Shown here piece after piece: positions 5,538 through 39,743 of a stretch of 40,375 nt of DNA. Origin of the DNA: Candidatus Magnetaquicoccus inordinatus (GTDB taxonomy: Bacteria; Pseudomonadota; Magnetococcia; Magnetococcales; Magnetaquicoccaceae); NCBI RefSeq assembly GCF_004217665.1, contig NZ_RXIU01000009.1:1-40375 (forward strand), in the 5' to 3' direction. The translations under genes and the position numbers were made by a program. A model generated the notes under the pieces. That model did no database searches, was not told where the DNA came from, and saw only the letters and a program-made list of their open reading frames with translations. Every line of letters starts with the position of its first letter. The stretch's first letter is position 1.

Positions 5538-6325
5538 TCGGCAGCGGCGGTAGTTCAGAATGGCGAGGGAGAGTGTCACTCTTGTGGGCAAGTGTGGCTC
5601 TGCTGGCCACTCTTGCGGCCTCTGCCGTCTCAGCAGATGAACCACTACCCAGAGGATTATTGGTTCCCCAGCGGGAGGCTTGGCTCTCCAGTCTGATGGA
5701 GGGGCAGATCGAGGCGATTCATAAACAGGAGGGAGAGCTGTTTCAAAAAAATGAGCTGTTGATCAGTTTTGTCTGTACCGTGCGTCAGGCCAAATTGCAC
5801 CAGACTCAAGCCACACTGCTTGCCGCTCGCAAAAAGATGCAGGCCAATCGGGAGTTGGTTGCGGTGCGTGCTGCCAGCCGTTTGGAGCTGGCTTTGAATG
5901 AAGCGGAGGTGATGCAGGCAGAAGCCGAACTGGCCGTACAAAAGGCACTGGTGGAGATGTGTTCGATTCGAGCGCCCTTTGCTGGCCGGGTGCATGCGCT
6001 GTCGGTGCATGCCCATGAGAGTGTTCCCCAGGGCAAACCGTTGCTGGATATCTCTTCATCGGGACCATTTGAAGTCCGGGTGATTGTGCCTTCCCGTTAC
6101 CATGCCGCTTTGCCGGTTGGCAGCAGCTTTTCCATCTTTCTCGAAGAGACCAGACAAAGCTATCCGCTCCAGGTGATTCGCAGCGGCGGACGCATCGATC
6201 CGGTCAGTCAGACCATGCCGATTGTGGGCCGTATTCAGGGAGAGTTTCAGGAACTGCTTCCTGGTATGGGTGGACCGGTCACCTTACCCAATTGGCACCG
6301 TTCTTCTCCTGCTCCCGCCCCATGA
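5534..6325 (+). CDS. HlyD/RND-type periplasmic adaptor protein
   Basis: ATG 5534 overlaps the TolC-like stop as ATGA and is preferred over the longer frame from 5492. The product has 263 residues: a signal peptide (hydrophobic SLLWASVALLATLAASAVSA), a barrel-sandwich half-motif (SLMEGQIEAIHKQEGELFQKNELL) and a helical hairpin at roughly 75-135. The second half-motif (CSIRAPFAGRVHALSVHAHESVPQGKPLL) and a beta-barrel domain ending near PGMGGPVTL follow. This is the short adaptor architecture of membrane-fusion proteins. It probably links the inner-membrane partner to the lipoprotein channel encoded just upstream. The stop overlaps the next start as ATGA. Confidence 0.85.
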   Translation: MIGSGGSSEWRGRVSLLWASVALLATLAASAVSADEPLPRGLLVPQREAWLSSLMEGQIEAIHKQEGELFQKNELLISFVCTVRQAKLHQTQATLLAARKKMQANRELVAVRAASRLELALNEAEVMQAEAELAVQKALVEMCSIRAPFAGRVHALSVHAHESVPQGKPLLDISSSGPFEVRVIVPSRYHAALPVGSSFSIFLEETRQSYPLQVIRSGGRIDPVSQTMPIVGRIQGEFQELLPGMGGPVTLPNWHRSSPAPAP

Positions 6326-7737
6326 ACCCCTCTGCTGAGAGGCAGCAACAAGAAAAAACGCTTCTGCCTGATCCGCGCCTTCTCGCACGCCAACTCGCTG
6401 GTTTGACACAACTTCTCTCCTTGTTCAAAGAGAGCCGTCATGCGCTCGATTTGCCGCAACTGGGCTTTATCATGGTCAATGAGAGCATGCGTCTGCTTCC
6501 CTACCATCAGGCTTTTTTCTGGCTGCAAGGTGTAGAGGAGCAGCAACTGATAGCCATTTCCGGTGTGGCACAGTGGGATGCCCATGCCCCCCAGGTGTTA
6601 TGGTTGCAACGTCTGCTGCGGGAATACAGCCGTCAAGAGATCAGTCAGCAGTTGCACCCATTGCAGAAGGAGCGGCTCTCCGAGGCGGTTCTTGGCGAAT
6701 GGTCGCAGTGGTCGCATCCGTATCTGTTGTGGCTTCCCTTGCGCCATCCTCTGCGCCATGACTCTTTGGGGGGGCTTCTTTTGGCGCGTGATCAACCCTG
6801 GGAGAGCAATGAACAGACGTTGCTGCAACAGCTTGGCGAGGGTTATGCCCAGGCTTTGACGATAGCGTTGCAGGAGAAAAAGTCGGTTTGGTCCTGGCGA
6901 TGGCCGCGAGCGATATGGCGCAAAGCAATAGTATTATTGCTGTTGTTGGCGTTATTGATGCTGCCAGTCCGGCAATCGGTGCTGGCTCCGGCAACCATTG
7001 TTGCCCGCCAGCCCTATATTGTGGCGGCACCACTGGATGGGGTGGTGCAGCGTTTTCATGTCTTGCCCAATGATCTGGTCACACCAGGGCAACCCCTGTT
7101 TGATCTGGATCCCGCAGAGCTCAAGCATCGTTTCCAGGTGGCTGGCGAAGAGTTGGCTATTGCCCAGGCGCAATATCAAAAAATGGCCAGCAAGGCTCTG
7201 CAAAACAGTGAGAGTGGAGGTGAATTGGCCGCTTTGCGTGCTGCGATGGCGCGTGCTGCTGCCCAGGCTGAGCATGCCAAACAACTGTTGCAACGGTTGC
7301 AGGTGCGTGCCGAAATGGCGGGTGTGGTATTGTTTGCTGATGTCAACCAATGGTTGGGACGTCCGGTACGTATCGGCGAAAGAATCCTGGCCATCGCTGA
7401 CCAACACGATATGGAGATGGAGATACTGTTGCCGGTTGCCGATGCTCTGGTGTTGCAAGCGGGTGCGGAAACCCGTCTGTTTCTCAATACCGATCCACTG
7501 CACCCCTTGTCAGGAAGTTTACGCTATGCCTCCTATGAGGCAGCCGCTACTCCGGAGGGGGTGTTGGCCTATCGGCTGCGCAGCACTTTGCAGTTTGACA
7601 AAATGACCGAGCCTTTGCCGAATCCGCCGCGTTTGGGGTTGAAAGGGACAGCAAAATTATTTGGTGAAGAGGTGCCGCTGTTGTATGATCTGTTGCGCCG
7701 ACCGTTAACAGCTTTACGGCAAAAGTTGGGTCTTTAG
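6322..7737 (+). CDS. GAF-like domain/HlyD adaptor fusion, single-pass inner membrane
   Basis: ATG 6322 forms an ATGA overlap with the previous stop. The 471-residue product has three parts. Residues about 20-175 form a soluble domain that looks GAF-like (LPYHQAFFWLQ near the start, LGGLLLARDQPW and a C-terminal helix). Residues about 195-215 form one membrane segment (ALLMLPV). The rest is a periplasmic HlyD part: barrel-sandwich half PYIVAAPLDGVVQRFHVLPN, a coiled coil, the second half RAEMAGVVLFADVNQWLGRPV, and a beta domain. The predicted topology puts the GAF-like domain in the cytoplasm, where it could sense a ligand or dock a partner. I assign GAF by pattern only; the HlyD part is secure. 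With the M50 fusion and the short adaptor, this makes three barrel-sandwich proteins in one operon. Confidence 0.8.
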   Translation: MNPSAERQQQEKTLLPDPRLLARQLAGLTQLLSLFKESRHALDLPQLGFIMVNESMRLLPYHQAFFWLQGVEEQQLIAISGVAQWDAHAPQVLWLQRLLREYSRQEISQQLHPLQKERLSEAVLGEWSQWSHPYLLWLPLRHPLRHDSLGGLLLARDQPWESNEQTLLQQLGEGYAQALTIALQEKKSVWSWRWPRAIWRKAIVLLLLLALLMLPVRQSVLAPATIVARQPYIVAAPLDGVVQRFHVLPNDLVTPGQPLFDLDPAELKHRFQVAGEELAIAQAQYQKMASKALQNSESGGELAALRAAMARAAAQAEHAKQLLQRLQVRAEMAGVVLFADVNQWLGRPVRIGERILAIADQHDMEMEILLPVADALVLQAGAETRLFLNTDPLHPLSGSLRYASYEAAATPEGVLAYRLRSTLQFDKMTEPLPNPPRLGLKGTAKLFGEEVPLLYDLLRRPLTALRQKLGL

Positions 7738-11045: not shown

Positions 11046-11385
11046 GGTATTGTTTATACTCCTGAATAGTTAATGAATATTGGCAGGGTAACACTATCTC
11101 CTCTCTTTTGCCAAGAGTCCGCTGTTTGATTTTGGTGAGACAGGTCGTTGTTATTGTGTTGTTATCAATATTTTGTATCGATGAATAAATCTGGTAAATG
11201 AAACAAAAAACCTACACAGAAAGCGCGATGGCTCATCGCCAAAGGAGTTGGCGCGAAAATTTACAATTTTTTTATATCTGCTTGATCAAAATTTTATAAC
11301 TGTATGATATTCATTACCAAATTCGCCAAGAATGTCGAGAGCTGCTCTCAACAAGACAACCAAGCCTACCCATAAAGGAATAATC
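11046..11385. promoter_or_regulatory. Divergent intergenic control region, pepF/pstS
   Basis: This is 340 bp of AT-rich DNA between divergent genes. Toward pstS there is a weak promoter candidate, TTGATC (11282-11287) and TATGAT (11303-11308), with a short 15-bp spacer. Upstream are two short perfect hairpins that share bases and so exclude one another: GCGATG/CATCGC (11225-11230 with 11234-11239) and CGCCAA/TTGGCG (11237-11242 with 11248-11253). The second carries AGGAG in its loop and is followed by a T7 run near 11268. I could not find a convincing Pho box (two CTGTCAT-like half-sites) although one is expected ahead of pstS. A ribosome site AAAGGA sits 7 nt before the pstS ATG. Confidence 0.35.
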
Positions 11386-12255
11386 ATGAAAATGAAACCC
11401 ATCGCCACTATTGCCGCTGTTTCCCTGTTGAGCCTTGTTTCAACAGGGTGGTCTGCCTCCATGATTCAAAACAAAGGATCGGATACCTTGGTCAATGTGG
11501 CGCAGGCATTGGCCGAAGAGTATCAAAAGGTCAAGCCGGAAGTGGCGATTGCCGTCACAGGTGGTGGCAGCGGTACAGGCATTGCCGCGCTTCTCAATGG
11601 CACTGTGGATATTGCCAATTCCAGCCGTCAGATTGAGCAAAAGGAGGTCAAGTTGGCAGAGAAGAATAACATTCATCCCAAAGAGTTGACCATCGGTTTT
11701 GATGCGCTGGGCGTCTTTGTGCACAAGAGCAATCCTTTGAAGGAGATCTCTCTGGCACAGTTGGCACGCATGTATGGCGATGGTGGTGATGTCAATAACT
11801 GGAAACAGTTGGGTGTCGAGGTTCCGGGTTGCAAAGGGCAAAAAATCATTCTGATCTCTCGGCAGAACAACTCGGGAACCTACGAATATTTTCGTGAAGC
11901 GGTGCTGCATAAAAAGGATTTTATTATGGGTACCCGTGATATGCACGGATCCAAAGATGTGGTGGATTTAGTCGGCAAGACTCCTTGTGCAATTGGTTAC
12001 AGTGGTATGGCCTATGCCGACGAGACGACCAAGATGTTGGCAATCAAGAAAGAGGATAGCTCTGCAGCGGTTGTTCCCAGCATGGAGACAGCAGTTGATA
12101 AAACCTATCCCATTGCCCGGCCACTGTTCATGTATACCAATGGCGAGCCGACCGGTGAAATTAAAGCCTATCTGGATTGGATCATGGCCAAAGATGGTCA
12201 ATGTCTGGTGAGCAAGAAAGGGTATGCCCCAGCCAAACCTGTTCCTTGCAAATAA
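11386..12255 (+). CDS. pstS: PstS, periplasmic phosphate-binding protein
   Basis: ATG 11386 is chosen over an in-frame ATG at 11332 because it has AAAGGA just upstream and begins a clear Sec signal peptide (MKMKPIATIAAVSLLSLVS, cut after GWSA). The mature protein has the phosphate-binding loops GGGSGTGI and SRQNNSGTYEYF, plus DIANSSRQI, all typical of PstS. At 289 residues it is shorter than E. coli PstS (about 346) and close to the short PstS class. It captures phosphate for the PstCA-PstB transporter encoded immediately downstream and, in well-studied species, supports PhoR signalling. It is the first gene of the pst-pho operon. Confidence 0.95.
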   Translation: MKMKPIATIAAVSLLSLVSTGWSASMIQNKGSDTLVNVAQALAEEYQKVKPEVAIAVTGGGSGTGIAALLNGTVDIANSSRQIEQKEVKLAEKNNIHPKELTIGFDALGVFVHKSNPLKEISLAQLARMYGDGGDVNNWKQLGVEVPGCKGQKIILISRQNNSGTYEYFREAVLHKKDFIMGTRDMHGSKDVVDLVGKTPCAIGYSGMAYADETTKMLAIKKEDSSAAVVPSMETAVDKTYPIARPLFMYTNGEPTGEIKAYLDWIMAKDGQCLVSKKGYAPAKPVPCK

Positions 12256-13427: not shown

Positions 13428-14360
13428 ATGAGCATTCCATTAGAGAAAGCAAGTACGCTGGTCGCCGCAGGGGATGTCCGCAATCGGGATTGGTATATCG
13501 ACAAACTGTTTCACAGTTTCATGTTTATCTGTGGAATATCGGCAGTCATTTTTGTGTTGGGAATCTTTGTCTTTGTTTTCAAGGAGGGTTCTGGTTTTAT
13601 CATTCATCAACTGGATTGGGCAGAGTTTTTTCTCTCTCCCAAATGGCGCCCCACCTCTGCCATTCAGGCCAGCTATGGCACGCTGGCAATGGTGGCGGGA
13701 ACGGCAGCGGTGACACTGATTTCCATGGCAGTAGCGCTGCCCTTCTCCTTTGGTGCCGCTATTTTTATCGCTGAGTTTGCCCGTGGCAAAACCCGCGAGT
13801 GGTTGAAAGTGGTGATTGAATTGTTGGCCGCTATTCCATCGGTGGTTTGGGGGTTTATCGGTCTGATGATCATGAATCCGTTGATTATCGATATCTTCGA
13901 TGTACCTATCGGCCTGAATGTACTCAATTCTGGAATTATTCTGGGCTTGATGGCTGCTCCCATCATTACCTCTATAGCCGAGGATGCTTTCAAGGCGGTG
14001 CCAGATACCTATCGCGAAGCGGCAGAAGCTCTGGGCGCCACCAAATGGCAGGTGATCTACAAAGTGGTGTTGCCCGCAGCAAAAAATGGTTTGCTTTCTG
14101 CCGCTTTGTTGGGTGTGGGACGGGCATTTGGGGAAACCATGGCGGTCTTGATGGCCAGTGGTCACGCTTTGACCATTCCTGGCAGTGTCTTTGATTCCAT
14201 TCGTGCCTTGACGGCAACCATTGCCGCTGAATTGGGTGAAACTCCGGTAGGATCAGACCATTATCAGGCTCTGTTTGCTATCGGTATCTTTCTCTTCAGC
14301 ATAACTTTCATCATCAACATGACCGCCGACCTGATCGTGCGGGGGATCAAGAACCAGTGA
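13428..14360 (+). CDS. pstC: PstC, phosphate ABC transporter permease
   Basis: This is an inner-membrane protein of 310 residues with about six membrane segments. The binding-protein-dependent permease motif EAAEALGATKWQVIYKVVLP lies near 200, and further family signatures are ELLAAIPSVVWGFIGL and GVGRAFGETMAVLMASG. It pairs with PstA to form the phosphate channel, and the EAA loop contacts a PstB subunit. The start is one base after the phoU stop, so the two are probably translationally coupled. It overlaps pstA if the GTG start of that gene is used. Confidence 0.95.
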   Translation: MSIPLEKASTLVAAGDVRNRDWYIDKLFHSFMFICGISAVIFVLGIFVFVFKEGSGFIIHQLDWAEFFLSPKWRPTSAIQASYGTLAMVAGTAAVTLISMAVALPFSFGAAIFIAEFARGKTREWLKVVIELLAAIPSVVWGFIGLMIMNPLIIDIFDVPIGLNVLNSGIILGLMAAPIITSIAEDAFKAVPDTYREAAEALGATKWQVIYKVVLPAAKNGLLSAALLGVGRAFGETMAVLMASGHALTIPGSVFDSIRALTATIAAELGETPVGSDHYQALFAIGIFLFSITFIINMTADLIVRGIKNQ

Positions 14361-14368
14361 GAACCGCC

Positions 14369-15271
14369 ATGAATCAAACTGCAACCCATACATCCACTCG
14401 CTTTCAGGCTGAACCGATCAACCTCAAAAATATTCAGGTGCAAAAGCTGTTCATGATTCTGTTTGGTCTGATGGCTGCGGTTTTGGTCATTCCGGTCATT
14501 CTGATTATTTTCACTCTGCTCCAGAAGGGTGGTAGCGCCATCAGTTGGGAGTTTTTGACCACCTTTCCCAGCAATGGCATGACAGCGGGCGGTATTCTGC
14601 CGGCACTGTTGGGTACCGTATGGTTGGTGGCCATCTCCTTGTTGGCCTCGGTGCCACTGGGAGTGGCGGCAGCCATTTATCTGAGTGAATATGCGCCACA
14701 GGATCATTGGCTGACCAGGGTGATCAACCTGGCAACCATCAATCTGGCTGGTGTGCCCTCCATCGTCCATGCTCTTTTTGGTCTGGGCGCTTTTGTGGCC
14801 TTTTTTCACCTTGGCACCAGTATTCTGGCTGCCAGTCTGACTCTGGCAGTCATGACCTTGCCGGTAGTGATTGTCGCTTCCTGGGAGTCGTTGCAATCGG
14901 TTCCTTTTGCCTTTCGAGAAGCCTGCTGGAATATGGGGGCGACTCGTTGGCAAACCATCTGGCATGTGGTGCTGCCCAATGCGCTGACCGGTATTCTTAC
15001 CGGCATTATTTTACAGGTTTCTCGCGCAGCAGGCGAAACAGCTCCCATCATGTTTACTGGGGCAGCATTCTTTTTACCCTTTCTGCCCTCCAGTGTGATG
15101 GATCAAACCATGGCTCTGGCGTTACATCTGTTCACCATTTCCACTCAGGTGCCCGGTGTTCCAGAGCAGATTCCGTTTGGGGTCGCTCTGGTGCTTTTCG
15201 GTATCGTCTTGATCATCAACACCTGTTCCATCTGGTTGCGCATGTATCTGCGCAGCAAGAAAAAATGGTAA
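14369..15271 (+). CDS. pstA: PstA, phosphate ABC transporter permease
   Basis: The product has about 300 residues with six predicted membrane segments. It carries the EAA motif FREACWNMGATRWQTIWHVVLP and PstA landmarks PLGVAAAIYLSEYAP and QVSRAAGETAPIMFTGAAFF. ATG 14369 is preferred because GTGAG lies 8 nt upstream; a GTG at 14357 would overlap the pstC stop as GTGA and add four residues. With PstC it forms the membrane path for phosphate. Its EAA loop should contact one of the two different ATPases encoded next. Confidence 0.93.
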   Translation: MNQTATHTSTRFQAEPINLKNIQVQKLFMILFGLMAAVLVIPVILIIFTLLQKGGSAISWEFLTTFPSNGMTAGGILPALLGTVWLVAISLLASVPLGVAAAIYLSEYAPQDHWLTRVINLATINLAGVPSIVHALFGLGAFVAFFHLGTSILAASLTLAVMTLPVVIVASWESLQSVPFAFREACWNMGATRWQTIWHVVLPNALTGILTGIILQVSRAAGETAPIMFTGAAFFLPFLPSSVMDQTMALALHLFTISTQVPGVPEQIPFGVALVLFGIVLIINTCSIWLRMYLRSKKKW

Positions 15272-30294: not shown

Positions 30295-31152
30295 TCAACG
30301 GGGCTGAGAACCAGCAACTACAGGATGATTGAGTAGTCGCCATTCAGCAATCGAACCGTCATATAAACGCACGTGCGTAAATCCCAAATAGCGCAACAAT
30401 AACCAGGTATGGGAAGCGCGATGGCCGGTTTCACAATAGGTGATGATCTCCTGTTGCGGATCCTGCAGACCCACTTGTGCCAGCAGGCGCAGCAACCTCT
30501 CTCTCTCTTGCAAACGCGGATCAAATTGGCTGTGCAAGCTGTCCATCCACTGAAAGAGACGGGCACCCGCAATATGGCCATGCGGAGGGCGGGAGGTTTG
30601 CCCCTGATACTCCTGCACCGAACGTGTATCAAGCAGGCAAACCGTTGCATCCTCTTTTGCTGCGTCTAAAACATCTCTCTCCTCCGCCTGCCATTGCGGG
30701 TTGGGAGCTGCAAAATAGAGTGTTGCCTGTCGGGGGCTCATTTGTCCGGTCATCGGTCTGTTTTCCCGATACCAGACCCCCAATCCTCCATCGAGAACCG
30801 CCAGTGCCGGATGGCCCAGAGTGGCCAGTGTCCAAAGCGCACGTGCTGCATCAGCACCTCCTGCGGTGTCATAGATCAAAACCGGATTTTCCCGGTTGAT
30901 ACCCAACTGACCAAAACGTTCACACAAATAGTCGCTTTCCGGTCGCATGGCCGGCACCCCATCCCGTTGGCAGACCAAATCGCCGTAAGAGAGTAACAAT
31001 GCGCCAGGAATATGAAATTGCGGATAATATTTTTCACCACCAATTTGCAGAATGCGCAGCCCTTCATCTTGTAAATGTTCGGCCAACCAAGCCGTATCGA
31101 CAAACAAAGAGGGAAAAGGGTTATCCGCTGGCACGGAAGTCAATGTGCTCAT
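30295..31152 (-). CDS. Two-domain sulfurtransferase (3-mercaptopyruvate/thiosulfate type)
   Basis: The 285-residue product has two rhodanese domains: an inactive N-terminal one (FVDTAWLAEHL to LDGGLGVWY) and a catalytic C-terminal one. Cys240 lies in ITYCETGHRASHTW. The linker motif LLDTRSVQEYQG is typical. The active loop CETGHR is neither the CGSGVT of mercaptopyruvate enzymes nor the CRKGVT of thiosulfate enzymes, so the donor is unclear. No signal peptide is seen, so it is cytosolic. It precedes ffh with a 37-bp gap. Confidence 0.88.
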   Translation of the reverse strand: MSTLTSVPADNPFPSLFVDTAWLAEHLQDEGLRILQIGGEKYYPQFHIPGALLLSYGDLVCQRDGVPAMRPESDYLCERFGQLGINRENPVLIYDTAGGADAARALWTLATLGHPALAVLDGGLGVWYRENRPMTGQMSPRQATLYFAAPNPQWQAEERDVLDAAKEDATVCLLDTRSVQEYQGQTSRPPHGHIAGARLFQWMDSLHSQFDPRLQERERLLRLLAQVGLQDPQQEIITYCETGHRASHTWLLLRYLGFTHVRLYDGSIAEWRLLNHPVVAGSQPR

Positions 31153-31224: not shown

Positions 31225-32796
31225 CTAGTTGCTTGGCTCATGGGGGGCGGGGTTGGGTAGGGAGGTCTGAATCTGCAAAAACTCCGGTAGATGCAGCAAA
31301 AAGAGGTCAACCAATGTGGGATCAAAAAGTGTTGCACGATTCTGGGTGATAAAATCAATGATCGTATTGATTTTCCATGATTTTTCATAATGACGATCAT
31401 GTGAAAGTGTATCAAAAACATCGACCAATGAGGTGATGCGGGCAAAAATGGGAATCTCTTCACCAGCCAAGCCATTGGGATAACCTTTGCCATCCCACTG
31501 TTCATGGTGCATTCCGGCGATGATGGCGCCTGCTTGCAAGACCCGTTGTTTGTTGTTTTTGAGCAGACGTGCTCCCACATCGGTGTGCGCCTGCATAATG
31601 GCCCACTCCTCTGGAGAGAGGCGACCCGGCTTGGTCAGGATGGTGTCAGGAATGGCAATCTTACCCAAATCGTGCAGGGGTGCTGCCAACCAGATCAGCT
31701 CCGCCTCTTCATCAGACAACCCTGCCAGTCTGGCCAATAAACGAGCCGACTCCGCCACCCGGCGTAAATGAAACTCTGCTTGCTGGGAGTGTGAATCAAC
31801 CGCCGCCCCCAGGGAAAAGGTCAGCTCTTGTTGCGTCTCCAGCATCTCCTGATTGGCATAGGCATTATCGAATGCCAAAGAGACATTGTTGGAAAATATG
31901 GCTATCAGCTTTTTATCCAGGGCATTGAGCGGTTTGCTTCCTTGCAAAAAGAGCAGATTCAACGAGCCATTGCGGGTGCGAAAATAGCCCACATAGACAT
32001 TTTCCTCACAAAAACTCTCTTGGCGCTGCAGGGCTCTTTCCACCAGGGCAATCACCTGCTGATTGGAGGTTTCTTGAACGGTTTTGCCTATCAACTCTTC
32101 ATAGAGTCCGGTTCCCGCATAAAGAGTCAGGCTTTCATTGTTGTCTGTGGCAGCAAAACCAGCCGGATGCACATACAATGCTCCCTCTTCCAGTTCCAGC
32201 AGAGCCACCAGTTGAATCAAAATACCGGTGGCCAATTTTTTTAACGACTGCATTTCAAACAGACTTTGTGTGGCGAGAATAATCTTTTCCAGACCGCGAC
32301 GATTCTCCTCAATAATTTTCAAGTCGCGATAGGCGCGCAACGATGCGGTCACGGCTGTCATCAATTTTTGCGAGGTCAGTTCGGTTTTTTCTTTGTAATC
32401 ATTGATGTCATAACTGGTAATCACCTTTTGTTCCGGAGCGCGGCCCGGTTGACCAGTACGCAGAATGATGCGGACAAAGCGATTGCCCAAGCGGTTACGG
32501 ATATAATCGACCGCTTCCAAACCAGCCTCTTCCCGCTCCATCACCACATCCAGTAACAATACTGCGGTGTCGGGATTTTCTTCCATCAGCCGTTTGGCTT
32601 CCTGTCCGGAGTGGCCGAAGAGAAATTCCAATCTTCGTCCCTCGAACTGATAATCTCGCAACACCATATGCGTCAGTGAATGGACATCATTATCGTCGTC
32701 GATGACCATCACTTTCCACGGCAGATGTGCGGCCGCATCCTCTTGTTCGGCGGCAGGGTCATTCACAAATACCAGTCGATCTTGATCCGTTGTCAT
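31225..32796 (-). CDS. Response regulator with DUF3369 and HD-GYP c-di-GMP phosphodiesterase
   Basis: The 523-residue product starts with a receiver domain (VIDDDNDV, phosphoacceptor Asp83 in LLLDVVMEREE, Lys in NDYKEKTEL). A GAF-like DUF3369 sensor segment spans roughly 150-310, and an HD-GYP domain 325-500. The HD pair is His375-Asp376 (APLHDLGKIAIPD) and the GYP motif is at 438-440 (HHEQWDGKGYPNGL), so the phosphodiesterase site looks intact. It should lower c-di-GMP on phosphorylation by the kinase encoded upstream, affecting motility or attachment. ATG 32796 directly follows the stop of the 25-codon mini-ORF (TAG-ATG). Confidence 0.93.
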   Translation of the reverse strand: MTTDQDRLVFVNDPAAEQEDAAAHLPWKVMVIDDDNDVHSLTHMVLRDYQFEGRRLEFLFGHSGQEAKRLMEENPDTAVLLLDVVMEREEAGLEAVDYIRNRLGNRFVRIILRTGQPGRAPEQKVITSYDINDYKEKTELTSQKLMTAVTASLRAYRDLKIIEENRRGLEKIILATQSLFEMQSLKKLATGILIQLVALLELEEGALYVHPAGFAATDNNESLTLYAGTGLYEELIGKTVQETSNQQVIALVERALQRQESFCEENVYVGYFRTRNGSLNLLFLQGSKPLNALDKKLIAIFSNNVSLAFDNAYANQEMLETQQELTFSLGAAVDSHSQQAEFHLRRVAESARLLARLAGLSDEEAELIWLAAPLHDLGKIAIPDTILTKPGRLSPEEWAIMQAHTDVGARLLKNNKQRVLQAGAIIAGMHHEQWDGKGYPNGLAGEEIPIFARITSLVDVFDTLSHDRHYEKSWKINTIIDFITQNRATLFDPTLVDLFLLHLPEFLQIQTSLPNPAPHEPSN

Positions 32797-32937
32797 CTAA
32801 CCCTCACATAGGCTTGCAGAAGGGAAATGAAGTTCATGACGGCTTTCCTGGCCGGGGCTCTTCTTGCTTGTCATCTAACCCTCACTGCGACTTTCGGAAG
32901 GGATATGAATTTCATAACGGGTTCCCTGGCCGGGGCT
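32790..32937 (-). repeat. Tandem 78-bp duplication of the kinase 3' end
   Basis: Two 70-base copies, 32868-32937 (inside the end of the kinase gene) and 32790-32859 (between the kinase and the regulator), are aligned without gaps at a spacing of 78 bp. Both end with GAGGGTTAGATGACAA on the minus strand, so each carries a stop codon immediately followed by an ATG. The copy in the kinase encodes SPGQGTRYEIHIPSESRSEG; the other, SPGQESRHELHFPSASLCEG. Confidence 0.9.
32797..32874 (-). CDS. 25-residue mini-cistron derived from a kinase C-terminal tail
   Basis: An ATG touches the kinase stop (TAG-ATG) and reads 25 codons, M-T-S-K-K then the diverged kinase tail SPGQESRHELHFPSASLCEG, to a TAG that touches the regulator ATG. 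The whole cistron is exactly one 78-bp repeat unit. Several differences from the parental tail are conservative (Tyr to His, Ile to Leu, Ile to Phe). It may be the last remnant of a second kinase gene lost by recombination, or a spacer kept for translational coupling. Whether a peptide is made or does anything is unknown. Confidence 0.4.
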   Translation of the reverse strand: MTSKKSPGQESRHELHFPSASLCEG

Positions 32938-34851
32938 GCTGCTGCATTGAATGGATCCCTTCAGCACCTGGGTCACCAGATTATAGACAATGTGCATCCC
33001 CAGGCCTGTCCCTCCGCGATGGCGCGCGGTAGTAAAAAAAGGCTCAAAGAGGCGGGCACGATCCGCCTCTTTCATGCCGCAGCCATTATCGGAATAACAG
33101 AACAATATGTCACCCTCTGTTACCACTACTTCGACAATTATTTTTCCCTCCTCTTCGGGAAGGAAGGCATGTTGCAAAGAGTTGACCAGTAGATTGGTGA
33201 TGATTTGGGAAAACACACCAGGAAAGCTGTTTATTTCCAAATGCTCCGGGCAGAGCACTTCCACTTGGATGTGGGTGTGTTTCAAACGGGGACGCAAGCT
33301 GAGCAATACATGATGGATATAGTCATGCAAAGCAAACAGACGCCGCTCTTCACTGGTACGATCGACCGCAACCAGTTTGAAACTGCGAATCAACTCTGCC
33401 GCACGCGCCAAATTTTGCGAAATCATCTCCGTCGATTCACTGAGATCACGGAAAAAATTTTCCAAATCCGATTTGCGCAAATTGCCTTGCTCAAACAATT
33501 GACGGCACTCTCGACCACGTTGTTCGAGAAAGGAGGCTGCCGTGAAGCCGGTCCCCACTGGCGTATTGATTTCATGGGCGACTCCTGCGACCAGGCTGCC
33601 CAACGAGGCCATCTTTTCCGCTTCCATCAACTGGGTTTGCGTGCGTTTGATCATGATCAGCGATTGTTCCAACGCCTCATTGTTTTGTTGCAACTCCAGT
33701 TGCCGGGCAGCCTCCTTGATGCGCGACTTGGCAATTTTATTGGTCATCCAATAAAACTGCTCGGCCATCACCAGCAACTGGTCTCCAGATGCCACCTTTT
33801 TTCGTTTGAGACCCAGTCGGTCAATGGCTGTTCCCAACATGCGTTCTGTAAAATCTTGGATTCTCTTGGCAATAAAAAAAACCAAGAGCAAAAATATGGC
33901 CGCAATAAATAAATAGCCAATGGTGCGTTGGTGTCGTTCGGCACGGACAATTTGTTCACTGGCGGCAGCCAAAGCGGACAACGGTTCCAAGGTGGCAAAA
34001 TGGATGGGAACATCGATGGCAAAGCTGTAATCCAGGAATTTTTTACCAAAAATGGAATAATTTTTAGCGAGTTGCTCAAGTGGCATCCCTTTGCTGATCA
34101 CATCCGGCTGCGTCGAGGCAATCACCTGGTTGCTCTCTCCGTGGATGAAGGCGACAGCACTTTGTGTTTCCGACAGGGTACGGAACAGGGAGAGAAAATC
34201 ATGATTCAATGGCGCATAAAAGACCAACAGCGCCTTGGGTTCGCTGAGCGGATTGCTGCCATTTATTCCAGACAGGGTCAATAAAAAGATCTCACCCTGG
34301 TTGTCACTGGCAATATGGGTATAGTCTTCAGAGCGCAACAGACGGGATAGCGTTGTCGCCAATTCTGTTTCTGATAACGGTGCCAATCCCTCATCACGAA
34401 CAAACTGTTCGCGCAGTCCCCCTTTGGCATCCAGCAGGAGAATATAGGGGGCCGCCACCCAACCACGCATCACTGAGCGTGGCGGTAACCAGGGGGGACG
34501 ATTTTCGTGATTCCAGTGTTTTATTTGTTGGGGAGCGCTTTGCCACTCTGCATTTTTTTCATCCACATAGCGCACAAAAGGGGTCAATTGCGCCAGTAAA
34601 CGGACCGCCTGCTCTTGTTGGCGGATATAATCATCAAAAATTAATCGATCTTTTTCTGCTTGTTGTTGCAACTCTTCCAGCATCTTTTCATGAAACAACT
34701 CACGAATGCGTGCCGATTGCCACCAATCCAAGGTTCCCCAAAAAAATATTCCCAACAGCACAGTGAGTACCAACGCTTTGCTGGTCAACGGTGTATGACG
34801 CCAGACTCTTCTCCACAGCAGCCGAAAACCAGTCAATTCTTGTGGCATCAT
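32875..34851 (-). CDS. Membrane sensor histidine kinase
   Basis: The 658-residue product has membrane segments at about 25-44 and 310-328 flanking a periplasmic domain of some 265 residues that looks like a double-Cache-type sensor (IFDDYIRQQEQAVRLLAQLTPF; YILLLDAKGGLREQFVRDEG). A coiled coil follows (378-415). His426 is in LVAGVAHEINTPVGTGF, the HEIN(T/P)P class of H-box. The ATPase domain has ITNLLVNSLQHAF, YSDNGCGMKEADRARLFEPF and GGTGLGMHIVYNLV. The start overlaps the stop of the binding-protein gene as ATGA. It should phosphorylate the HD-GYP regulator next to it, perhaps using the binding protein as ligand receptor. Confidence 0.92.
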   Translation of the reverse strand: MMPQELTGFRLLWRRVWRHTPLTSKALVLTVLLGIFFWGTLDWWQSARIRELFHEKMLEELQQQAEKDRLIFDDYIRQQEQAVRLLAQLTPFVRYVDEKNAEWQSAPQQIKHWNHENRPPWLPPRSVMRGWVAAPYILLLDAKGGLREQFVRDEGLAPLSETELATTLSRLLRSEDYTHIASDNQGEIFLLTLSGINGSNPLSEPKALLVFYAPLNHDFLSLFRTLSETQSAVAFIHGESNQVIASTQPDVISKGMPLEQLAKNYSIFGKKFLDYSFAIDVPIHFATLEPLSALAAASEQIVRAERHQRTIGYLFIAAIFLLLVFFIAKRIQDFTERMLGTAIDRLGLKRKKVASGDQLLVMAEQFYWMTNKIAKSRIKEAARQLELQQNNEALEQSLIMIKRTQTQLMEAEKMASLGSLVAGVAHEINTPVGTGFTAASFLEQRGRECRQLFEQGNLRKSDLENFFRDLSESTEMISQNLARAAELIRSFKLVAVDRTSEERRLFALHDYIHHVLLSLRPRLKHTHIQVEVLCPEHLEINSFPGVFSQIITNLLVNSLQHAFLPEEEGKIIVEVVVTEGDILFCYSDNGCGMKEADRARLFEPFFTTARHRGGTGLGMHIVYNLVTQVLKGSIQCSSSPGQGTRYEIHIPSESRSEG

Positions 34852-35882
34852 GGCTCCCCGATCAACTCATTTCCTCTGAATTGCCAACCTTTTTTGCGCA
34901 ATTCAGTGGCGGGAACCAAACGCAAAGAGGGATCCACGCGACCGGCATTGGCCATTAGATATTCGACCAGTTGTTGTGCTTTGCCATTTGCCAGATGCTC
35001 GGCACTCCACGTGGAAACATTATAGACCCAATAAAAGGGATAACGCCCCTCTTTCAGAGTGTTGGTATCTGTTGGATCCTGCCCATCAATGGCAATCGCC
35101 CTGACTTTGTTATTGAAGCGCGGATCGTTCAATAACTGCCAGTTTTCCAAATACCCAATCGTGCCAGGATGTTTGGCTACCGTGGTAACCATATCCAAAA
35201 TGGTTCCCACCTCATTGATGCGTGAGCCAAACTGCTCTTCATTATCCAGAATCAACCGCCAGTGACCGGGGCGAATTTTACAATGCAAGCGGGTGACTGG
35301 GCGCACCAGCAACTCTTTCGGATAGTGTTTGCCAATATTTTCCAAATGTGACCAACGACTGATTTTGCCGCGATAAATATCACGGACCTCTGTTGCTGTA
35401 AGCTGTTGCAGCGGATCTTTGTCATGGACCAGAATTGCCAAAGGAGAAATACCGATGGTATGCCATTGCAAACCGGGCAGACGATCCACCTTGGCCGCCG
35501 GACAACAGGAACCGCCAATATCTACCTCCTTGCGATTGATTCCTTCAGCCGCCGGACCGCAGGTTCCCTCTCGTACCGAGACATTGATTCGCTGATTGCG
35601 CGCAAACTCCTGTATCAGTGGCAGCAATCCCGGATAAATATTTTGATCCAGCAATAAAACAACCTCTGCTCCTAGATCCTGTTCCCGATAACGGATCGGC
35701 TGTTTTTGCCACTCTTCTGATTTTTCAAGAACCTCATCGGGATGGGAAAAGGCAGGACCACGCAAGGTGGTCGGTACAATATGTTCCGCATGCAGCTCCT
35801 TCTGCCAGAGACATACAGCCAGAATGAGCAGGAGGAAACTTAGCCAACCATTTATGCTTGAATTTGTTTTATACCGTTTCAT
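34848..35882 (-). CDS. PstS-like periplasmic substrate-binding protein, cysteine-rich
   Basis: The 344-residue product has an N-terminal signal (FLLLILAVCLWQ, then HAEH). It shows the PBP-like fold of PstS relatives: VVLLLDQNIYPGLLPLIQEFA, VDIGGSCCPAA, IGISPLAILVHDKDPLQQLT, VRDIYRGKISRWSHL, and TIGYLENWQLL. The phosphate loop GGGSGTG of true PstS is replaced by REGTCGPAAEG, and cysteines occur at TCGP and SCCP, so the ligand is probably not plain phosphate. There are no permease genes beside it; it overlaps the kinase by ATGA and the Sel1 gene by ATGA. A role as sensor for the kinase is the natural inference. Confidence 0.82.
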   Translation of the reverse strand: MKRYKTNSSINGWLSFLLLILAVCLWQKELHAEHIVPTTLRGPAFSHPDEVLEKSEEWQKQPIRYREQDLGAEVVLLLDQNIYPGLLPLIQEFARNQRINVSVREGTCGPAAEGINRKEVDIGGSCCPAAKVDRLPGLQWHTIGISPLAILVHDKDPLQQLTATEVRDIYRGKISRWSHLENIGKHYPKELLVRPVTRLHCKIRPGHWRLILDNEEQFGSRINEVGTILDMVTTVAKHPGTIGYLENWQLLNDPRFNNKVRAIAIDGQDPTDTNTLKEGRYPFYWVYNVSTWSAEHLANGKAQQLVEYLMANAGRVDPSLRLVPATELRKKGWQFRGNELIGEP

Positions 35883-37999
35883 TGATGTGACTTCCCTTCC
35901 ACCCAGGCTCTGACCAGGCGCTGCGACTCTGCCAACTGATTTCTGGTCAGACGATGTCCTAAACGCTCCCGCTCTTTGACGGCAGCACGATAGCCACTCC
36001 TGGCCGAAAGAGTATACCAGGCGTGTGCCGCAGCAGGATCCTTGCCCGATGCAATTCCTTCTTCCAACACCATACCCAGATTATGTTGTGCCTCGGCATG
36101 ACCCTGTTCTGCTGCCAAACGATACCAATATTCCGCCTGTTGCGGATCCTGCTCGATGCCATCGCCATACGCATAGAGTGTACCCAGATGGTTTTGTGCC
36201 TCGGCATATCCCTGTTCGGCGGCCATTTGAAACCAGAGTACCGCCTCGGCGCTATCACTGGCCACCCCTCGACCATCACGATAGAGAATACCTAACAGAT
36301 TTTGTGCCTGTGGATCGTTGCGACTCACCGCCTTGCGCAACCACTGCACCGCTTCACCGGCATTGCTGGCGATACCCTCCCCACTCAGCAGGCGCTGCGC
36401 CAACTCTATCTGGGCTGCCAATTCACCTTGGCGTGCAGCCTGCCGACACAATTTTTGGGCCTGCAGCTCATCCTGTTTGACTCCTAAACCTTGCCAAAAG
36501 AGCCGGCTCAAATGGTAGCCCGCTTCTGCACACCCTGCCTCTGCGGCTTGCCGATAATAGCGCACAGCCTCCGGCCAGCTTTGTGTCACGCCATTGCCGG
36601 TCGCATAACAGTGAGCCAACTGCACCATAGCCAAATGGTGTCCCTGCTCTGCCGCTTTGCGATACAAGGAGAGCGCCTCTTTGTGGTCCTGGGTGACTAT
36701 CCGACCCGCCTCATACCACTGCCCCAACTGATATTGCGCCCCTTTATGTCCCTGCGCGGCTGCCCGGCGAAACCAAAGCAGCGCCTCTTTATCCTCCTGT
36801 CTGACACCATGACCATGGACATGACACTGGCCCAGGTTATATTGCGCAATGGCATGACCCTGTTCAGCAGCCAAACGAAACCAGTGGGCAGCTTGCGCAT
36901 CATCCCGTTCCACACCTTTGCCGCTGCGGTAGAGATTGCCTAAATTATTTTGGGCGTTGGCATGCCCTTGTTCTGCAGCCGCACGATACCATCTGTATGC
37001 CTCCAGTGCATTCTGCTCGACCCCTTCTCCTTCCGCATAGCGGGCGGCCAAGGCCGCTTGGGCGCCCGCATGACCCGCCTCTGCAGCCAGTCGATACCAA
37101 TGCAGCGCTTGCGATATATCGACAGCGATACCCTGACCTTTGCGATAGGCGTTGCCTAAGGCAAAACGCGCCTCGGCATGGCCTGCTTCGGCCGCTTTGC
37201 GGTACCAGCGCAAGGCGACTCGTTCGTCGCAGCCAATACCCACACCCTTGGCATAGGCATGCCCCAAATAATAGCAGGCATCGCGATCATGTTGCTCAGC
37301 AGCCTTGTAAAACCAAAAGACCGCCTCGGCATCATTGCGCTCGATACCTTCCCCTTGTGTATACAGTAAACCCAGTTGTCGTTGCAGAGCAGCATCACCC
37401 TGTTCAGCCCCCTTGCGCAGCAGAGTCAACCGTTCACTGGCGCTGGAGAGAGTTTGCGCATGCTCGGCGCGCAGTTGTGCCAAAGCCTTGCTGGCGGCAC
37501 GATGACCCTGCTGGGCCGCCTTCCCTAACCATTCGGCGGCCAGGGTAAGATTTTGCACAACTCCTTCTCCACTGCGATACATTTGTCCCAGACTGAACTG
37601 GGCATCGGCAGCACCTTGCTCTGCTGCCTGACCATACCAGAATGCTGCTTGCGCAGGATCCGGGTTGATGCCTTGACCATTGTAAAAAATGTGTCCGACA
37701 AAGAGTTGATGTTCAGGATTGCCTTGCGCTGCGGCCTGGCAATACCAGTAGAGTGCCTGTTGACCATCCGCTTCCACCTCTTCGCCATCGCTGTAGAGGT
37801 CGCCCAGCCACAGTTGTGCCTCCAGCAATCCCTGTTCGGCAGCCATTCGCGCCCAATTGCCTGCTGCTTCAGGATCAGCCTCCAGACCATTACCCTCCTG
37901 ACAGGCGACAGAAAGGGCCCATTGGGCAGCAGGATCTCCTTTTCGGGCGGCATTGAACAGTTCGTGCACAGGGGGGGCAGGATTTTTGTTGCCAGACAT
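35879..37999 (-). CDS. Sel1-like repeat protein with about 17 repeats
   Basis: ATG 37999 has GGGAG 5 nt upstream and is preferred to ATG 38026. The 706-residue product is almost entirely Sel1-like repeats of 36 residues (for example ANAQNNLGNLYRSGKGVERD and AEAQNHLGTLYAYGDGIEQD), about 17 clear copies plus one degenerate copy near residues 165-200 (ASERLTLLRKGAEQGD). There is no signal peptide, so it should be cytosolic. Sel1 proteins are adaptor scaffolds for signalling complexes. Its ATGA overlap with the binding protein makes it the first gene of the sensor operon. A membrane protein gene lies 30 bp upstream on the same strand. Confidence 0.92.
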   Translation of the reverse strand: MSGNKNPAPPVHELFNAARKGDPAAQWALSVACQEGNGLEADPEAAGNWARMAAEQGLLEAQLWLGDLYSDGEEVEADGQQALYWYCQAAAQGNPEHQLFVGHIFYNGQGINPDPAQAAFWYGQAAEQGAADAQFSLGQMYRSGEGVVQNLTLAAEWLGKAAQQGHRAASKALAQLRAEHAQTLSSASERLTLLRKGAEQGDAALQRQLGLLYTQGEGIERNDAEAVFWFYKAAEQHDRDACYYLGHAYAKGVGIGCDERVALRWYRKAAEAGHAEARFALGNAYRKGQGIAVDISQALHWYRLAAEAGHAGAQAALAARYAEGEGVEQNALEAYRWYRAAAEQGHANAQNNLGNLYRSGKGVERDDAQAAHWFRLAAEQGHAIAQYNLGQCHVHGHGVRQEDKEALLWFRRAAAQGHKGAQYQLGQWYEAGRIVTQDHKEALSLYRKAAEQGHHLAMVQLAHCYATGNGVTQSWPEAVRYYRQAAEAGCAEAGYHLSRLFWQGLGVKQDELQAQKLCRQAARQGELAAQIELAQRLLSGEGIASNAGEAVQWLRKAVSRNDPQAQNLLGILYRDGRGVASDSAEAVLWFQMAAEQGYAEAQNHLGTLYAYGDGIEQDPQQAEYWYRLAAEQGHAEAQHNLGMVLEEGIASGKDPAAAHAWYTLSARSGYRAAVKERERLGHRLTRNQLAESQRLVRAWVEGKSHQ

Positions 38000-38028
38000 A
38001 CTCACTCCCGGATGGCCGGAAACCATTT

Positions 38029-38709
38029 TTAGATCATAATGGAATATATTGATTTATATCTTTTCAAAAGGGTATTGGCAAGCACAGGCAGCATGGCCAG
38101 CAGGAGCAGAAGCAGAAACAGCTCCAAAGAGAGAATATCTGCGGGATGATGGAGTTGGCTGAGGCGACTGCCTGCCTGAACATAGAGCATGGTGGCAGCC
38201 AACATGCCTATCTGACTGACCAGATAGAAGGTGCGTAGAGGGATGGGGGTCAAACCCATCAACAGGTTGACCAGAAAGGAGGGGATGATCGGCAGCAGGC
38301 GCAAGCTCAACAGGTATACGGCCCCATCACGGGCAAATCCCTCCTGTATGGGATGCAACTCTTTTCCCCAACGTGCTTGCACCCAATCGCGCAGCAGATG
38401 ACGCGACAATAAAAATGCCATGGCACAGCCGATACTGGAGGCAAAAGAGACCAACAGCGTTCCCAAGGCCAAACCAAACAATGCTCCGCCAGCAAGCATC
38501 AACAGGGTTAATCCGGGCAACGATAAGGCGGTCATGCTCATATAGCTGAGAAAAAAAAGCAGTGCTGTACCGATTGGATAGAGCTGATAAAAGGCTTGCA
38601 GCTTTTGATAGAGCTCTTTCAGGTTTTCCAGGGTCAACAGATGTTGCAGCAGTCCGCCGAGCGCGAGCAGCAACAGCAACACCACCATCCCTTGCCATGA
38701 AATTTTCAT
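38029..38709 (-). CDS. TVP38/TMEM64 (VTT domain) membrane protein
   Basis: ATG 38709 (MKISWQGMVVLLLLLAL) is chosen over a frame extension to 38757 that would overlap arsS. The 226-residue product has about six hydrophobic segments and the VTT core LSLPGLTLLMLAGGALFGLALG with FxxSRHLLRDWV after it, then LRLLPIIPSFLVNLLMGLTPI. VTT proteins (DedA relatives) are membrane proteins tied to lipid scrambling or transport. A TVP38-type gene next to arsS is a recurring arrangement, to my knowledge, so it may serve the same pathway. It is 11 bp downstream of the arsS stop. Confidence 0.88.
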   Translation of the reverse strand: MKISWQGMVVLLLLLALGGLLQHLLTLENLKELYQKLQAFYQLYPIGTALLFFLSYMSMTALSLPGLTLLMLAGGALFGLALGTLLVSFASSIGCAMAFLLSRHLLRDWVQARWGKELHPIQEGFARDGAVYLLSLRLLPIIPSFLVNLLMGLTPIPLRTFYLVSQIGMLAATMLYVQAGSRLSQLHHPADILSLELFLLLLLLAMLPVLANTLLKRYKSIYSIMI

Positions 38710-38720
38710 CTGCCGGTCGT

Positions 38721-39695
38721 TCAGGCAGCCAAAGCGCCGCCACAGGAGGAGCCACAACCGGCGGTACAGGCAAAACAGTGGTTGCCGGTGACAATCGAAC
38801 GATGCGCCAGTTGTTGCGGGTCATAATCGGGTTGCAGTTCTTGTGCTGGCACATTGGCAGGCCAACCCAGGGCCAAATTAAAATCGCAATCAAAGAGCGC
38901 TCCATCCCAGCGAATGGAGATCTGTTTGCGACACATCAAAGGTTCCAAGGTGGCCGGATTAAAACTGTTGCGCAACAACTGCCCATAGCGCTCTTCCTCT
39001 CCTGAGCGCCGCAGTTCCGCTTGAAAACGACCAATCGGCATATTGGTCATCGTGTACAGACGGTGAAAGTGGATGGCGTGCATCTGCCACAAGCGCTGCC
39101 GATACTCCTCTTCCAGACGTTGTTGATTGGGAGGCAGAAAGGCTTTGCCCGGATTATAGACCAGATGCAGAGGCAAGTGATCCTCGCGACCATATCCCAG
39201 TTGATTGAGTTTGTGCAGCGCTGCAATCGTCTGTTGATAGACCCCGCTGCCCCGTTGGGCATCGACATTTTCTGGCAGATAACAGGGGAGCGATGCGATA
39301 ATGGTGACCTGATGGGCGCGCAGAAAGGCGGGCAGGGTAGCCATTTGCGGATCCTCTTCCATCAAGATGGCCAGGTTGCTGCGCAGTTGCACGGCCACCT
39401 GCCTGTGATGAAGATTTTCAATCAGGGTGCGCAATAGTGGATGATATTCAGGGGCTCCCCCAGTCAGATCCACCTCCCGGCAGCCACTCTTATCCACCAG
39501 GCGCAATACCCGCTCCATTACCGCCCAACTCATGCTTTCCGAGCGACGCGGCGAGGCCCCCAGATGACAATGTTGACAGGAAAGATTGCAACGCAGGCCC
39601 AAATTGAGTTGAATCACCTGCAAGCCAACAGTGGTCAACTGTTTTTGTGCCAGATAAGGACGAACGGTGTCCAGGAAGGTGCTTGCGCAGGACAT
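38721..39695 (-). CDS. arsS: ArsS-like radical SAM protein (arsenosugar pathway)
   Basis: ATG 39695 is used; a TTG at 39707 adds four residues. The 324-residue product has the cluster motif CNLSCQHCHLGASP, then REVDLTGGAPEYHP and LRSNLAILMEED. The C-terminal part has CRKQISIRWDGALFDCDFN and the tail HCFACTAGCGSSCGGALAA. This matches ArsS, which adds a 5'-deoxyadenosyl group to dimethylarsinous acid in arsenosugar synthesis. Some ArsS are selenoproteins; here the C-terminal positions are ordinary Cys codons with no in-frame TGA. No arsM methyltransferase is in the window, so function in arsenosugar synthesis is not fully supported locally. Confidence 0.85.
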   Translation of the reverse strand: MSCASTFLDTVRPYLAQKQLTTVGLQVIQLNLGLRCNLSCQHCHLGASPRRSESMSWAVMERVLRLVDKSGCREVDLTGGAPEYHPLLRTLIENLHHRQVAVQLRSNLAILMEEDPQMATLPAFLRAHQVTIIASLPCYLPENVDAQRGSGVYQQTIAALHKLNQLGYGREDHLPLHLVYNPGKAFLPPNQQRLEEEYRQRLWQMHAIHFHRLYTMTNMPIGRFQAELRRSGEEERYGQLLRNSFNPATLEPLMCRKQISIRWDGALFDCDFNLALGWPANVPAQELQPDYDPQQLAHRSIVTGNHCFACTAGCGSSCGGALAA

Positions 39696-39743
39696 GGCAA
39701 CCGCCAATCATGTAGGTAGGTTTTGGCTGGAAGCTCTCCCTGG

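Follow-up and report, generated by a model that had tools for sequence, protein, structure and literature searches.

A PstS-like protein with four conserved cysteines, a probable transport-free periplasmic receptor in an operon of Candidatus Magnetaquicoccus inordinatus

The DNA analysed here, referred to as the window, is a stretch of 40,375 nucleotides that constitutes one of the 546 contigs (NZ_RXIU01000009.1) of the 4.14 Mb genome of Candidatus Magnetaquicoccus inordinatus (GCF_004217665.1). On its minus strand, it carries an operon in which the gene for a PstS-like periplasmic binding protein (PBP) is followed by the genes for a transmembrane histidine kinase and a response regulator with an HD-GYP domain. 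The PBP is probably a soluble, transport-free receptor of a three-component system that senses a thiophilic species or the redox state. Because conserved cysteines stand at the phosphate positions and the partners are sensors instead of a transporter, the signal reported is likely to be a thiol-reactive chemical or a redox cue.

The PBP (344 aa, 34848..35882, minus strand), the N-terminus of which resembles by eye a Sec signal sequence, belongs to the PF12849 PBP_like_2 family (44.9 bits, cut-off 27) and scored 48.4 bits against the PstS model TIGR02136, far below the cut-off of 206.6. The window also encodes a true PstS at 11332-12255, which scored 238.3 bits against the same model; the position given for it in a preliminary description of this DNA, 11386, lies inside the gene. 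A profile-profile comparison of the cysteine-PBP family with 31 PstS gave a probability of 98.7 and an E-value of 4.7e-16 for this single comparison, and in the PDB the family profile matched phosphate-type binding proteins best, namely 1twy (E 3.1e-18) and 4exl (E 3.1e-17). The fold is thus common to both proteins and the loops differ. The GSGTG and SGT-type loops of PstS bind phosphate; in the window PBP they are replaced, the aligned residues being TCGPA and KIR, in agreement with the earlier account of a PstS-like protein that lacks the phosphate loop.

The cysteines are carried by three loops. C108 (codon 35559..35561, minus strand) lies in the loop EGTCG, and its aligned counterpart in the PstS loop GGGSGTG is S80. 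C126 and C127 (codons 35502..35507, minus strand), in the loop GGSCCP, aligned with PstS S98 and R99, columns occupied by S and R in 31 of 31 PstS; in the solved structure 4exl, C126 falls on the Asp of NSD. The motif H200-C201-x-x-R204-P-G-H207-W208 (35259..35285, minus strand) aligned with the PstS loop RQNNSGTYEYF from N179, and in the profile-profile alignment H200 and C201 stood opposite N179 and N180, directly before the invariant SGT, with R198 opposite PstS R177. The unusual cysteines of TCGP and SCCP had been pointed out previously, while C201, in RLHCKIRPGHW, had been overlooked. Since the cysteines align with three anion-binding loops of PstS, they are predicted to replace its ligand-binding positions, and we infer from the same alignment that C108, C126-C127 and C201 meet in one site or pocket.

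The odd cysteines are, by sequence comparison, a trait of the family. A protein search of 61 genomes gave matches in 45, weak generic PBPs counted in; 80 stretches were fetched, and the 75 with a PBP match of at least 90 bits were combined with the window to give 76 PBP sequences, none identical and some near-identical. G106, C108, C127, H200, C201, R204, P205 and W208 were invariant in all 76, and C126, R198 and H207 were each kept in 75. The mature part contained four cysteines in 66 sequences, five in nine and three in one, and in those 66 the only mature cysteines were C108, C126, C127 and C201. In a chosen set of 56 PBPs, three of them from another class, the signature (C108, C126, C127, H200, C201, R204, P205, H207, W208) was conserved without exception, even in members with as little as 27% identity to the window PBP, and it was kept in a very divergent branch (L105-L108). 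Five ordinary PBPs from the same search (L109-L113), which were left out of the 76, had Ser, Thr, Gly, Arg, Asn or Ala at the four cysteine positions. A second full copy in the window's own genome was 62% identical to the window PBP, and the PBP of locus L033 was 72% identical to it.

The predicted role of the PBP as a receptor is well supported by the genomics. Permease relatives were sought with the window products of 13428-14360 and 14357-15271, which we take to be PstC and PstA. No relatives were found at any of 78 family loci, with flanks mostly of several kb and other permease families not searched for, versus 18 of 30 PstS loci in a control with flanks of about 1.5 kb; the earlier statement that no permease is nearby was borne out to this extent. 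The partners were examined among 68 downstream same-strand open reading frames (ORFs), 49 of which were put through Pfam together with the window kinase to give 50 partners. The other 19 comprised near-duplicates, truncated or short ORFs, and ORFs from loci of the GGDEF kind or with weak PBPs; six of these (L036, L075, L077, L081, L083, L093) and L111 were covered by a later Pfam scan. HATPase_c was found in 47 of the 50 partners, GGDEF with EAL in two, and HAMP with GAF in that of L106, and hydrophobic segments flanked the periplasmic region on both sides in 48 and on one side in two. A kinase ATPase domain was located downstream on the same strand in 59 of 79 loci by a domain BLAST rule. In the divergent branch, L105 and L107 have GGDEF-EAL proteins as partners, L106 has a HAMP-GAF protein, and L108 has a hybrid kinase in which CHASE4 was matched. 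At L111, the gene for a PBP that has no binding-loop cysteines (6561-7406) overlaps a hybrid kinase gene (4003-6564) by 4 bp, and the pairing of PBPs with kinases is therefore wider than the cysteine family.

The window kinase (658 aa, 32875..34851, minus strand) has hydrophobic segments that start near residues 22-26 (weak) and 307-316, separated by approximately 260 residues, which agrees with the large periplasmic sensor originally described. HATPase_c at 82 bits and an HEINTP motif at residue 426 identify it as a histidine kinase, the N and G motifs also being intact, although HisKA, at 18.8 bits, was below the cut-off of 26.9. Its periplasmic domain is free of cysteine, the cysteines of the kinase occurring only from residue 449 on. 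The periplasmic regions contained no cysteine in 48 of the 50 partners and one cysteine in the other two, so the chemistry is expected to sit in the PBP.

Over 46 PBP-partner pairs, the correlation of distances was 0.897 between the PBP and the periplasmic domain of its partner versus 0.631 between the PBP and the cytosolic part. None of 1000 permutations reached 0.897, and the values were 0.865 and 0.586, respectively, when L105-L108 were removed. The contrast between the two halves of one partner protein is the informative piece of this co-divergence, with the caution that inserted domains worsen the cytosolic alignment. Together with the kinase partners and the missing permease relatives, the co-divergence bears out the earlier proposal that the binding protein serves as a receptor and not as part of a transporter.

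Several observations weigh against a cysteine-based receptor. Co-divergence of the PBP and its partner is partly expected for adjacent genes or from shared inheritance. At 12 of the 79 loci the PBP comes after a GGDEF regulator, with no sensor directly behind it, and the pairing of the non-cysteine PBP of L111 with a hybrid kinase means that the pairing alone is independent of the cysteine pocket. An AlphaFold2 model from two sequences had a mean pLDDT of 35.7 and no usable fold, so the pocket geometry rests on the alignment, and the conserved cysteines could be structural disulfides. Finally, no ligand gene was consistently linked among the neighbours of the family loci, and of the loci fetched, L035 is the only one besides the window where ArsS adjoins the system.

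In the proposed mechanism, C108, C126-C127, H200-C201, R204 and H207 would form a single pocket that binds a thiophilic species, with reduced sulfur compounds and soft metals or metalloids as candidate ligands; alternatively, the pocket would hold a metal and its redox state would be read out. A thiophilic ligand is favoured because the signature includes two histidines and two arginines alongside its four cysteines, and the many copies per genome make a rare toxin less plausible than a common cue such as reduced sulfur, iron or redox. Once loaded or oxidised, the PBP would dock on the periplasmic domain of the kinase, a contact to which the co-divergence points. The kinase would pass phosphate to the receiver-DUF3369-HD-GYP protein, as gene order and intact motifs suggest, and the regulator would change the breakdown of cyclic di-GMP (c-di-GMP). 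At other loci receptors of this kind would feed different outputs, for example GGDEF regulators encoded next to ATPases of the pilus-motor type. Redox gradients are where magnetotactic bacteria position themselves, and, to our knowledge, few receptors are known for this behaviour. A bolder version, which we put forward tentatively, is that the phosphate pocket of PstS was turned into a four-cysteine, two-histidine metal or iron-sulfur/redox centre and the PBP into a modular periplasmic redox receptor docked to many outputs (HD-GYP, GGDEF, hybrid kinases and pilus motors), which would guide cells through gradients of oxygen, sulfide or iron; the PBP family to which it applies has so far been seen in the order of the window and, in another class, in a single genus.

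Among the alternatives to a ligand-binding receptor of this kind, a thiol redox switch that needs no ligand has a real but minor chance of being correct. Cross-cleft disulfides formed in an oxidising periplasm would close the PBP, and the closed form would signal, so that the cell would read its position in an oxygen or sulfide gradient. In favour of such a switch, 66 of the 76 PBPs have four cysteines in the mature part, neither more nor fewer, and the many copies per genome (seven motif copies in G037) with varied outputs fit a general cue, but the conserved R198, H200, R204 and H207 resemble an anion or metal site and not a bare disulfide switch.

A receptor for arsenite or another metalloid, coupled to c-di-GMP, was considered because of AioX. 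As described in the excerpt of PMC7533571, AioX senses As(III) and requires Cys108 for binding it, and, like the window protein, it is a periplasmic binding protein that adjoins a sensor kinase and a regulator (AioX-AioS-AioR). The window has this layout, with the PBP adjoining a kinase and a regulator and no PstC/PstA-type permease. The excerpt describes one critical mutated cysteine in AioX, whereas four are conserved in the window PBP, a distinction drawn from that description; AioSR, of the sigma-54 family, controls genes (PMC7533571), whereas the window regulator is an HD-GYP protein. ArsS, named as an arsenosugar biosynthesis protein, is encoded two genes upstream of Sel1 (TIGR04167, 400.8 bits). 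That only L035, of the fetched loci, shares this neighbour with the window speaks against a metalloid ligand, and a sensor of a toxic metalloid would seem out of place where a genome can carry as many as seven copies and the outputs vary, so this explanation is unlikely.

It is somewhat less likely still that the PBP remains a sensor of phosphate or another oxyanion with cysteines that are structural. The PstS fold is kept, as is R198 opposite PstS R177, but the GSGTG and SGT loops are gone, the cysteines lie in or beside them, and the same window encodes a true PstS, followed by the genes that we read as its transporter. An orphan transport protein that feeds an ABC permease encoded elsewhere, with its position by the kinase incidental, would accord with the mostly transport-linked nature of PBPs of PstS-like fold but is very improbable given the kinase ATPase domain downstream in 59 of 79 loci and the count of zero in 78 for PstC/PstA relatives, the one permease type looked for.

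The output of the window system is a receiver-DUF3369-HD-GYP response regulator (523 aa, 31225..32796, minus strand; DUF3369 161.9 bits, HD_5 110.2 bits). Its HD-GYP motifs, HDLGK at 375 and HHEQWDGKGYP at 430, are intact, consistent with the HD-GYP phosphodiesterase that had been named as the output. The receiver scored 24.6 bits in Pfam versus a cut-off of 30.2, with the receiver residues DDD, LLLDV, RTG and DYKEK in place, and the protein is probably a c-di-GMP phosphodiesterase. It shares DUF3369 and a complete HD-GYP after a receiver-like domain with the DUF3369-HD-GYP regulators and differs by its tie to a PBP/kinase pair; a paper on Vibrio cholerae HD-GYP proteins (PMC4212101) mentions DUF3369 once. 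A regulator with DUF3369 was found at 12 further loci, with HD-GYP also detected in 10.

The outputs of the family are diverse. The labels assigned to 79 PBPs comprised 27 kinases, 23 hybrid kinases, 13 kinases with a DUF3369 regulator, 12 GGDEF regulators, three GGDEF-EAL proteins and one unlabelled locus (L089). On a quick PBP tree the label changed at least 15 times by parsimony, a rough figure because the labels were set partly by hand and some kinase labels came from contigs that end early (L036, L053). Domains related to c-di-GMP were near 25 of the 79 loci by a distance rule that misses several of the 12 GGDEF loci. In the latter, a receiver-PAS-GGDEF protein precedes the PBP (L060, L061, L069-L071, L074-L076, L083, L084, L087 and, partial, L093); they were found by BLAST to the L060 protein, with Pfam applied to L060, L061 and L084. 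Among the scanned genes after the PBP in these loci, those of L075 and L083 encode AAA ATPases and that of L093 a sugar dehydratase. T2SSE ATPase genes, presumably PilT/PilU, are near 11 of the 12, and this sub-group suggests a link to pili or surface sensing. The c-di-GMP pathway proposed at the outset fits the window and the 12 other DUF3369 loci, but many loci have other outputs and 12 lack a sensor directly after the PBP.

Binding proteins that signal are already known from AioX and NspS. According to the excerpt of PMC8967002, NspS of Vibrio cholerae controls the c-di-GMP enzyme MbaA, and a title cited there describes NspS signalling as independent of transport. The NspS-MbaA pair resembles the cysteine-PBP systems in that a binding protein acts as a receptor that changes c-di-GMP. 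NspS binds polyamines and acts directly on the GGDEF-EAL protein MbaA, whereas the family loci mostly have a kinase between. The partner in the window is such a kinase, and the NspS-MbaA layout, a PBP beside a GGDEF-EAL protein, occurs in L105, with a direct GGDEF-EAL partner also in L107. Among the literature matches listed, no title or beginning of an abstract described the cysteine-PBP family. What is new, as judged from the sequences, is a coherent family of binding-protein receptors, derived from PstS, in which one conserved multi-cysteine signature is combined with many different outputs. Expression and testing are straightforward for a soluble receptor of one domain with four cysteines, which puts a quick answer to the ligand question within reach.

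The distribution of the family was surveyed by scanning 398 genomes sampled from Pseudomonadota for the pattern HCxxRPGHW, which is strict and misses L089 (RPGDW). It occurred in 42 genomes, versus two for the reversed control. The matches came from 38 of 48 genomes of the window's order, three genomes that belong to a single genus in another class, and G186, the match in which was discarded as it sits in a 72-residue frame that has no profile match. A profile search in the class of the three outside genomes found three of 78 genomes at E up to 1e-30, and a contig scan with a single sequence as query gave one locus. Viral contigs contained 30 loci with the pattern, none of which belonged to the family by profile (best 15.9 bits, E 0.0007, in a 69-residue frame), and a phage search for the PBP family gave no match. 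Four weak plasmid records at 23% identity (three Vibrio, one Limosilactobacillus) were likewise rejected; the one Vibrio record opened was, by reading of its ORFs, an ordinary pstS with permease and ATPase genes.

In minus-strand reading order, the genes of the region encode ArsS radical SAM, VTT, Sel1, the PstS-like PBP, the histidine kinase, the receiver-DUF3369-HD-GYP regulator, a rhodanese and ffh. The rhodanese or 3-mercaptopyruvate sulfurtransferase-like protein (30295..31152, minus strand; Rhodanese 99.2 bits) is an uncertain member of the system; its gene lies between the HD-GYP gene and ffh and overlaps the latter, so the link may be positional. BLAST detected a rhodanese on the downstream side of the kinase or regulator gene at 10 of the 80 loci that were fetched (L035, L037, L043, L052, L057, L064, L066, L067, L073, L077) and weakly upstream in L080. 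The PurL and Maf neighbours detected by Pfam at L052 are housekeeping genes and were set aside as offering no clue to the ligand.

Upstream, the ArsS ORF overlaps that of the VTT membrane protein (38029-39707), an order before Sel1 that was seen among the fetched loci only in L035. The Sel1-repeat protein (715 aa, 35879..38026, minus strand) has no N-terminal hydrophobic signal as judged by eye, which fits the cytosolic location proposed at first, but has 16 repeats above the Pfam cut-off and not the 17 initially counted; a Sel1 gene is also immediately upstream of the PBP gene in L035, L037 and L043. ATGA overlaps flank the PBP gene on both sides, at the Sel1/PBP and PBP/kinase junctions, and the ORFs and junction sequence thus uphold the coupling of the PBP to both neighbours. 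The kinase and regulator genes, which abut in the relative L035, are separated in the window by 78 bp that correspond to a duplicated junction, made up of the end of the kinase gene and the start of the regulator gene; the tandem duplication spans 32790..32945 (minus strand), its two copies are 81% identical, and by reading it leaves a frame of 25 codons between the two genes.

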